64,000 nt of DNA. Source: Natrinema sp. SYSU A 869 (GTDB lineage: Archaea > Halobacteriota > Halobacteria > Halobacteriales > Natrialbaceae). The position numbers and the translations under genes were made by a program. The notes beneath the pieces were generated by a model, which was not told the DNA's origin, did no database searches, and worked only from the letters and a program-made list of their open reading frames with translations. The number at the start of each line of letters is the position of its first letter. The stretch's first letter is position 1. The stretch lies in NCBI RefSeq assembly GCF_019879105.1, contig NZ_CP082249.1, forward strand, positions 1,426,001 through 1,490,000. The letters are read 5' to 3'. Shown here in pieces: positions 13,165-13,913 of the stretch.

Positions 13165-13398
13165 TTACTCGCGCTCGAGGCGGCCCGGAGCGACAGCACA
13201 GCCACAGGGAGAGGCGGTCGCCTCGAGCGGCCCGCTCACGGATACCACCCAGACGGAGCGACCGCAGGTGGGGCAGTCGGGGAGCGACGATTCAAACGTC
13301 TCGAACGACTCGTCGTCGTCAGTCATCGCGACCTCCGCGGTCGGCGCGGCCGGTCTCGAGCGTCCGGAGTCGTCGCTGGTCGTTGGAGTTGATTCCAC
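13165..13398 (-). CDS. Small CPxCG-type zinc-ribbon protein
   Basis: A small protein with LPDCPTCGRSVWVVS and a second Cys pair in SPCGCAVAP, giving a four-cysteine zinc ribbon. Two starts are possible: 13398 (77 aa, with a Ser/Thr/Pro-rich leader) or the internal ATG at 13326 (53 aa, MTDDDESFETFESS). The shorter form resembles other haloarchaeal zinc-finger micro-proteins more. Such proteins are often regulatory or protein-protein adaptors. Its promoter region is shared head-to-head with the candidate RNA gene that starts near 13441 on the other strand. Confidence 0.65.
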   Translation of the reverse strand: MESTPTTSDDSGRSRPAAPTAEVAMTDDDESFETFESSLPDCPTCGRSVWVVSVSGPLEATASPCGCAVAPGRLERE

Positions 13399-13412
13399 TG
13401 TCGTGCGGGACG

Positions 13413-13418
13413 TTTATA
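13413..13418 (+). promoter_or_regulatory. TATA box ahead of candidate structured RNA
   Basis: TTTATA in GACGTTTATATCCCGG. At the normal archaeal spacing of about 26 bases it places a start near 13441, exactly where a run of stem-loops begins and no plus-strand protein gene follows. Confidence 0.55.
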
Positions 13419-13440
13419 TCCCGGTAGAATGTACGCGTTC

Positions 13441-13565
13441 ATGGCTTTCGGACCCTCTCGGGTTGGAAGCCACGTCTCGGGTGGCTCTAGCACCCGGGGC
13501 ATTTCGATGCGTGCCCCATTGCGTGTGCGTTCGGAGACCGGCTTCCGCTTGAATGTTCGCACGGC
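13441..13565 (+). ncRNA. Candidate structured non-coding RNA
   Basis: Four successive stems follow a well-placed TATA box. Stem 1 covers 13443-13471 (GGCTTTC/GGAAGCC continuing into GACCC/GGGTT around TCTC, 12 pairs). Stem 2 is CGGGTG at 13478-13483 with CACCCG at 13491-13496. Stem 3 is GGGCA at 13497-13501 with TGCCC at 13512-13516. Stem 4 closes GTGCG at 13525-13529 with CGCAC at 13558-13562. A/T-rich TTATAATTA follows at 13571. I do not recognise it as tRNA, SRP RNA or RNase P RNA. A minus-strand ORF across it is Arg/Pro-rich and unconvincing. Confidence 0.45.
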
Positions 13566-13569
13566 GTGA

Positions 13570-13913
13570 CTTATAATTACTGGAGAGTACTGTGATATCT
13601 ATTCGATGCGGCTCGAGTACAGGTGGTTTCTTCGCTGAAGTTCTCGAATGAAGCGGTTCGGTTGAGAGTGATACGACCGGCGACGAGCGTCTTGCTCATG
13701 CTGGCAACAGGGAATCGCCACGCCCTCCCTAGCCGATTCACTCGCGCAAGGTTGTGTCGCGGTTCGTCTATGACTTACGCGTCACTTCGTTCCCCGTTCC
13801 GCTTTCGAGGCGCTCCGCCCATCGCGCCTCGCACTCACCGCGACACAGCGCGTGCCACCGCATGGTGGAAAGCAGAGTCAGTGGAAGCGCCGACGACCCG
13901 GTCCGTCTCGCCG
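13570..13913. other. Spacer without a gene, with dispersed-repeat-like text
   Basis: About 340 bases with no convincing ORF. The stretch around 13700-13740 (AACAGGGAATCGCCACGCCC and the following CTCCCTAGCCGATTC) has the look of an intergenic repeat that I associate with Natrinema-type genomes, from memory only. GAGGCGC near 13808 pairs with GCGCCTC further on. Nothing else is seen. Confidence 0.4.

Follow-up and report, generated by a model that had tools for sequence, protein, structure and literature searches.

The locus lies within a window of 64,000 nucleotides from the haloarchaeon Natrinema sp. SYSU A 869 (by window we mean the whole stretch of DNA that was analysed) and comprises two overlapping minus-strand open reading frames (ORFs), together with hairpins and promoter-like elements:

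13165..13326, minus strand: zinc-ribbon-like ORF, 53 aa (MTDDDESF...CPTCG...PCGC...), with its ATG at 13326-13324 and GGAGGT ahead of it
13323..13442, minus strand: upstream ORF, 39 aa (MNAYILPGYKRPARQ...), its stop overlapping the start of the zinc ORF as ATGA
13406..13423, no strand assigned: palindrome P, CGGGA-CGTTTATA-TCCCG, within which lie codons of the upstream ORF and the hexamer 13413-13418; may be the core of a plus-strand promoter
13441..13550, plus strand: predicted RNA antisense to the mRNA leader, proposed from G-U bias, fold and TATA spacing
13442..13472, plus strand: hairpin A (of the predicted antisense RNA), 13 pairs in the fold, abutting the upstream start codon on the minus strand
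13465..13478, minus strand: inner arm of helix D (GGCTTCC plus GAGAC in the mRNA), competing with hairpin A
13478..13496, no strand assigned: hairpin B, invariant stem CGGGTG/CACCCG with a variable loop of 6-7 nt
13497..13516, no strand assigned: hairpin C, GGGCA/TGCCC, from fold and conservation
13533..13546, minus strand: 5' arm of helix D, GGAAGCCGGTCTCC, at the predicted mRNA start
13570..13583, minus strand: TATA-like element, CCAGTAATTATAAG, the predicted mRNA promoter, from spacing in relatives

The initial annotation had read this locus as a compact, stand-alone structured RNA of four successive stems transcribed from a TATA box at 13413-13418; it had weighed the gene content of the plus strand only, although two minus-strand ORFs (13442-13323 and 13326-13165) overlap the promoter region. 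While the candidate RNA is structured and under selection, with hairpin A selected on the plus strand, it is not a compact RNA that stands on its own, but runs antisense to the structured leader of a gene with two ORFs on the minus strand. As judged by comparison with its relatives, the locus is one member of a multicopy gene unit rather than a lone non-coding RNA gene. Nucleotides 13440-13518 of the plus strand have a predicted fold of -39.7 kcal/mol (z -3.4; 0 of 200 shuffles equally stable), the fold of the whole 138-nt stretch being weaker (z -1.98). The first three stems (A, B and C) hold on the plus strand, but a local fourth stem is unsupported, its region serving as distal arm in a long-range helix (13465-13471/13540-13546). 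The stems are very strongly conserved among relatives. The description of the RNA as unrecognised also holds: Rfam searches of both the window and the locus, at the gathering score and at E up to 5, gave zero matches.

The genome of Natrinema sp. SYSU A 869 carries 23 copies of the element, dispersed over the chromosome and two large replicons; the largest contig has 13 of them, and the two smaller contigs have 4 and 6. Many copies were recovered in a search of 61 related genomes. We scanned for the core pattern GTCTCGGGTG-N-CACCCGG, with the reversed pattern as a control. Of the 242 genomes in the class, 42 contain it, almost all of them from the window's family (Natrialbaceae), with a maximum of 28 copies per genome; the control gave single matches only in the same 242 genomes. 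A longer pattern detected at least 120 stretches in a scan of 84,980 species and, among the matches listed, all came from Natrialbaceae-type genera, including Natrinema, Halopiger, Halovivax, Natrialba, Halostagnicola and Natronorubrum. The element is present on plasmids of Natrinema, Halostagnicola, Halopiger, Natribaculum and Halomontanus; phage records searched with it gave zero matches. The copies on the two smaller replicons (L037-L049) have in common a plus-strand ORF (MSESEYRDDRLIAVALTEF...) at about +260 from the element, which has no family match. A degenerate relative in a genome of another family (L028, genome G043) has hairpin A, the upstream ORF and a small CPRCG...PCEC protein, and is without the B hairpin.

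The zinc-ribbon-like ORF is, by its substitution pattern, under purifying selection, with dN/dS of 0.11-0.67 and below 1 in every group of relatives. A small CPxCG + PCGC protein lies opposite nearly every copy in the window's genus and, in the wider set, a small ORF with two cysteine pairs (a loose criterion) is found downstream in 201 of 227 copies. Other genera have a different small partner, either of the CxxC...CVDCLAALGMLEF type or with a HalOD1-like domain ahead of a CPxCG...PCGC end. The GP..PCGC family of the zinc protein matches no curated family in Pfam or NCBIfam, the structure prediction is of low confidence (pLDDT 73.5), Foldseek with this model found nothing below E 0.3, and PADLOC gave one weak match and otherwise nothing. 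As judged by its hydropathy (GRAVY -0.19, best 15-residue value 0.98) and net charge (-7), the protein does not have the character of a small hydrophobic membrane toxin. In several copies a second small zinc ORF (CxxCGA...GWWLCDDCEL) is located further down the minus strand.

The invariant CATG bordering hairpin A is the start codon of the upstream ORF on the minus strand. The frame that this codon opens runs up to the zinc ORF, ending at -6 to +17 nt relative to the zinc ATG, in 166 of the 172 distinct copies; the other two frames do so in 5 and 1 copies. This holds although the distance from the upstream ATG to the zinc ORF takes 47 different values between 83 and 251 nt across the 172 copies. 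An upstream ORF overlapping the downstream gene, a trait of hok/mok-type systems, is present in these 166 copies, and we infer that translation of the zinc ORF would be coupled to that of the upstream ORF. Past its first 14 codons the upstream ORF shows little amino-acid selection, so that we argue for its translation from frame conservation; weak amino-acid selection is what one expects where an ORF is translated for coupling. With a net charge of +9 for 13323-13442 and a median of +6 over 195, the upstream peptide is strongly basic, while the zinc protein is acidic (-7), which is unusual for a salt-in archaeon; the active product could be the peptide itself. Fusion of the upstream ORF and the zinc-ribbon in one frame occurs in some genomes of Halovivax type and in a few others.

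Since a G-U pair on one strand is an A-C mismatch on the other, the two can be set against each other as a strand test. Counted on the plus strand, and with related sequences treated as independent, G-U:A-C is 85:19 in the inner part of hairpin A (185 distinct hairpins) and 26:7 in its outer part, but 1:26 in helix D and 2:12 in palindrome P; the bias in hairpin A is alike in all three promoter classes. This pattern argues that hairpin A is maintained in a plus-strand RNA, and D and P in a minus-strand RNA: both strands are predicted to fold. We detected no clear strand preference for stem C. The inner stem and loop of hairpin A are hypervariable, with compensatory change. When the minus RNA is folded from its predicted 5' end, helix D closes around hairpins C and B and the upstream ATG is mostly unpaired; helix D and hairpin A are mutually exclusive.

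A TTTATA hexamer does occupy positions 13413-13418, as first annotated, but its degeneration in 53 of 227 copies, about a quarter (TTTTTG, TTTAA/TTTAAG), makes it unsafe as promoter evidence. On the minus strand it is read as TAT AAA, two codons of the upstream ORF, and it also forms part of palindrome P; the arms of P covary (CGGGA/TCCCG swaps with CGAGA/TCTCG). The T-rich (TTT) core is exactly 27 nt from the CATG in 212 copies, a fixed spacing that fits a plus-strand promoter, and the hexamer may promote a plus-strand RNA antisense to the leader. On the minus strand, about 190 of 214 copies have a TATA-like sequence at a distance of 23-25 nt from the D arm. A search for terminators found none, and a sigma-70 promoter scan is meaningless for archaea.

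The divergence of the copies differs by segment. Ten copies on the two smaller replicons are nearly identical: they do not vary in palindrome P, the ORF start and the stems (pairwise difference 0.000) and vary little in the zinc ORF (0.050), but the difference per column reaches 0.42 for the inner part of hairpin A and 0.69 for loop B. Loop B (GCTCTAG here, 13484-13490) takes 128 sequences in 233 copies. Within a genome it is identical in 1 of 1153 pairs, as compared to 11.3-11.8 expected from genome-label shuffles; by the yardstick of different-genus pairs the deficit is moderate (1 seen, 6.7 expected, P 0.009). We prefer a comparison at matched flanks, because sharing of loops between genomes partly reflects descent: at a flank identity of at least 90%, loop B is common to 0 of 48 paralogue pairs and to 10 of 33 between-genome pairs (Fisher P 5e-5; all these pair counts treat related sequences as independent). 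Comparison of the copies thus establishes, at the level of sequence, a multicopy family with coupled frames, structure on two strands and hypervariable loops that are unique within a genome.

Of 116 loops, 61 are within one mismatch of the reverse complement of another loop, exceeding a position-aware null of 500 simulations (mean 31, maximum 52). Forward-sense neighbours are enriched too (84 vs 57), and hairpin inversion therefore stays a suggestion only. Orthologous B loops that look inverted (CTGGATC vs GTTCCAG; L095 and L097/L098, L003 and L007) hint at inversion as a source of new loops. U-turn (YUNR) motifs, considered as a sign of kissing loops, are more frequent than in simple shuffles but not above the position-aware null, and were dropped for this reason.

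Our preferred reading, probable in our judgement though held with caution, is that the unit is a multicopy antisense-RNA/leader-ORF control module akin to hok/mok/sok and equipped with orthogonal recognition loops. The minus-strand mRNA would start at about 13548, and its 5' end would fold back through helix D around hairpins C and B, exposing the ATG of the upstream ORF; ribosomes finishing this ORF would restart at the overlapping ATG of the zinc protein. The plus-strand RNA would start at about 13441, opposite the upstream ATG, fold as A, B and C, and be fully complementary to the leader. The two RNAs would first make contact through their variable loops, B and A; pairing would spread from there and block translation of the upstream ORF and hence that of the zinc protein. 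Here we infer both transcripts, the kissing contact at the loops and the repression. With 23 such units in one cell, the loops would have diversified such that each antisense RNA recognises its own mRNA only; loop diversity probably keeps the copies from silencing each other.

The mutual exclusion of D and A, with A abutting the ATG, would also suit a cis-acting leader switch, in which the minus mRNA alone matters, D versus A at the upstream start senses a condition or ligand, and the loops reflect fast hairpin mutation. Such a switch is in keeping with D and P having their G-U pairs on the minus strand, and the enrichment of mutual reverse complements in the loop set suggests inversion as the route of mutation. 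We nevertheless hold it to be unlikely: the plus-strand G-U pairs of hairpin A (85:19 and 26:7) are unexpected if only the minus RNA folds, and fast mutation leaves unexplained why paralogues never share loops while equally similar copies from different genomes do.

It is improbable that the plus RNA is instead a guide whose loop B supplies a seed of 6-7 nt for targets at other sites, with the zinc protein as the RNA-binding partner of this guide. The variable loop is exposed and small zinc-ribbon-like proteins adjoin nearly every copy, but the loops of orthologues change even where the flanks retain 90-98% identity, a change that a conserved target in trans should counteract, and the partner proteins vary among genera. 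A free-standing compact non-coding RNA transcribed from the TATA at 13413, as originally proposed, we consider very doubtful: while the TATA and the stems are present and the plus-strand fold is stable, the conserved unit includes two conserved ORFs and a promoter-like element on the minus strand. Finally, dispersal over the chromosome and two large replicons and the palindromic hairpins would befit a DNA-level mobile repeat (either a non-autonomous transposon or a site of integration, with palindromes that function as DNA), but this is hardly credible for a unit that contains an ORF under purifying selection, has a strand-specific G-U bias and, between replicon copies, shows homology running on into the neighbouring sequence without a sharp end.

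If the antisense-controlled module is the right reading, its nearest known counterpart is hok/mok/sok, where Sok blocks translation of mok, which is needed for that of the downstream gene, and hence blocks hok (PMC4147584). As in this system of plasmid R1, the haloarchaeal unit has an antisense RNA (predicted here) opposite the leader, an upstream ORF and a folded mRNA 5' region; unlike it, the unit is archaeal, its product is acidic, soluble and zinc-ribbon-like where hok encodes a hydrophobic peptide, it occurs in more than 20 loop-distinct copies per genome, and there is no sequence relation. In the Ibs/Sib systems of Escherichia coli the antisense RNA carries target recognition domains (PMC8309996). 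These too have several paralogous loci per genome, but IbsC is a 19-aa membrane peptide, unlike the zinc protein. Ibs/Sib loci are far fewer in number and are not known to have a coupled upstream ORF. Loop-loop recognition, with loops setting the specificity, is a feature of CopA/CopT-tap-repA and of RNAI/RNAII, and repA/tap has a coupled leader ORF. By contrast with plasmid copy control, there are many copies per replicon here and no replication gene as a constant neighbour: instead of a replication initiator, the small two-cysteine-pair ORF lies downstream (201 of 227 copies). A hydrophobic membrane toxin is typical of type I systems but not universal, RalR and SymE being cytosolic (PMC8309996).

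With its small size and two cysteine pairs, the zinc protein resembles the C(P)XCG zinc-finger micro-proteins of Haloferax volcanii, some of which are described as affecting stress adaptation, biofilm and swarming (PMC6562870, PMC11241148). We found no antisense-RNA module described for the C(P)XCG micro-proteins, and the GP..PCGC family stands outside the curated families. Our literature search, in which subscription papers were thinly covered, found neither an archaeal type I system nor this module described; according to the account of a 2025 study, type I toxin-antitoxin systems were until then known only from Proteobacteria, Firmicutes and Tenericutes (PMC12390103). Antisense control of the unit, if true, would extend a type I-like architecture to archaea and offer a natural experiment in how many antisense RNAs can remain orthogonal within a cell, each genome having more than 20 loops of 6-7 nt, all borne on an invariant stem, and the distinct sequences numbering more than 100. 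A class of small zinc proteins in haloarchaea, often lacking annotation, would be accounted for as well. A bolder version is possible, if tentative: that the units form the first archaeal family of type I-like antisense modules for addiction or immunity, each cell holding dozens of mutually orthogonal copies whose loops diversify, perhaps by hairpin inversion, and which have been re-paired with small zinc proteins that differ between genera.

Relatives of the zinc ORF are also found in other haloarchaeal families, where the leaders (upstream 300 nt) are of different sequence and likewise strongly hairpin-rich (L296, L307, L304 and L308); in L296 and L307 the leaders have the closing arms CACTCGCGGC ... 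GCCGCGAGTG.
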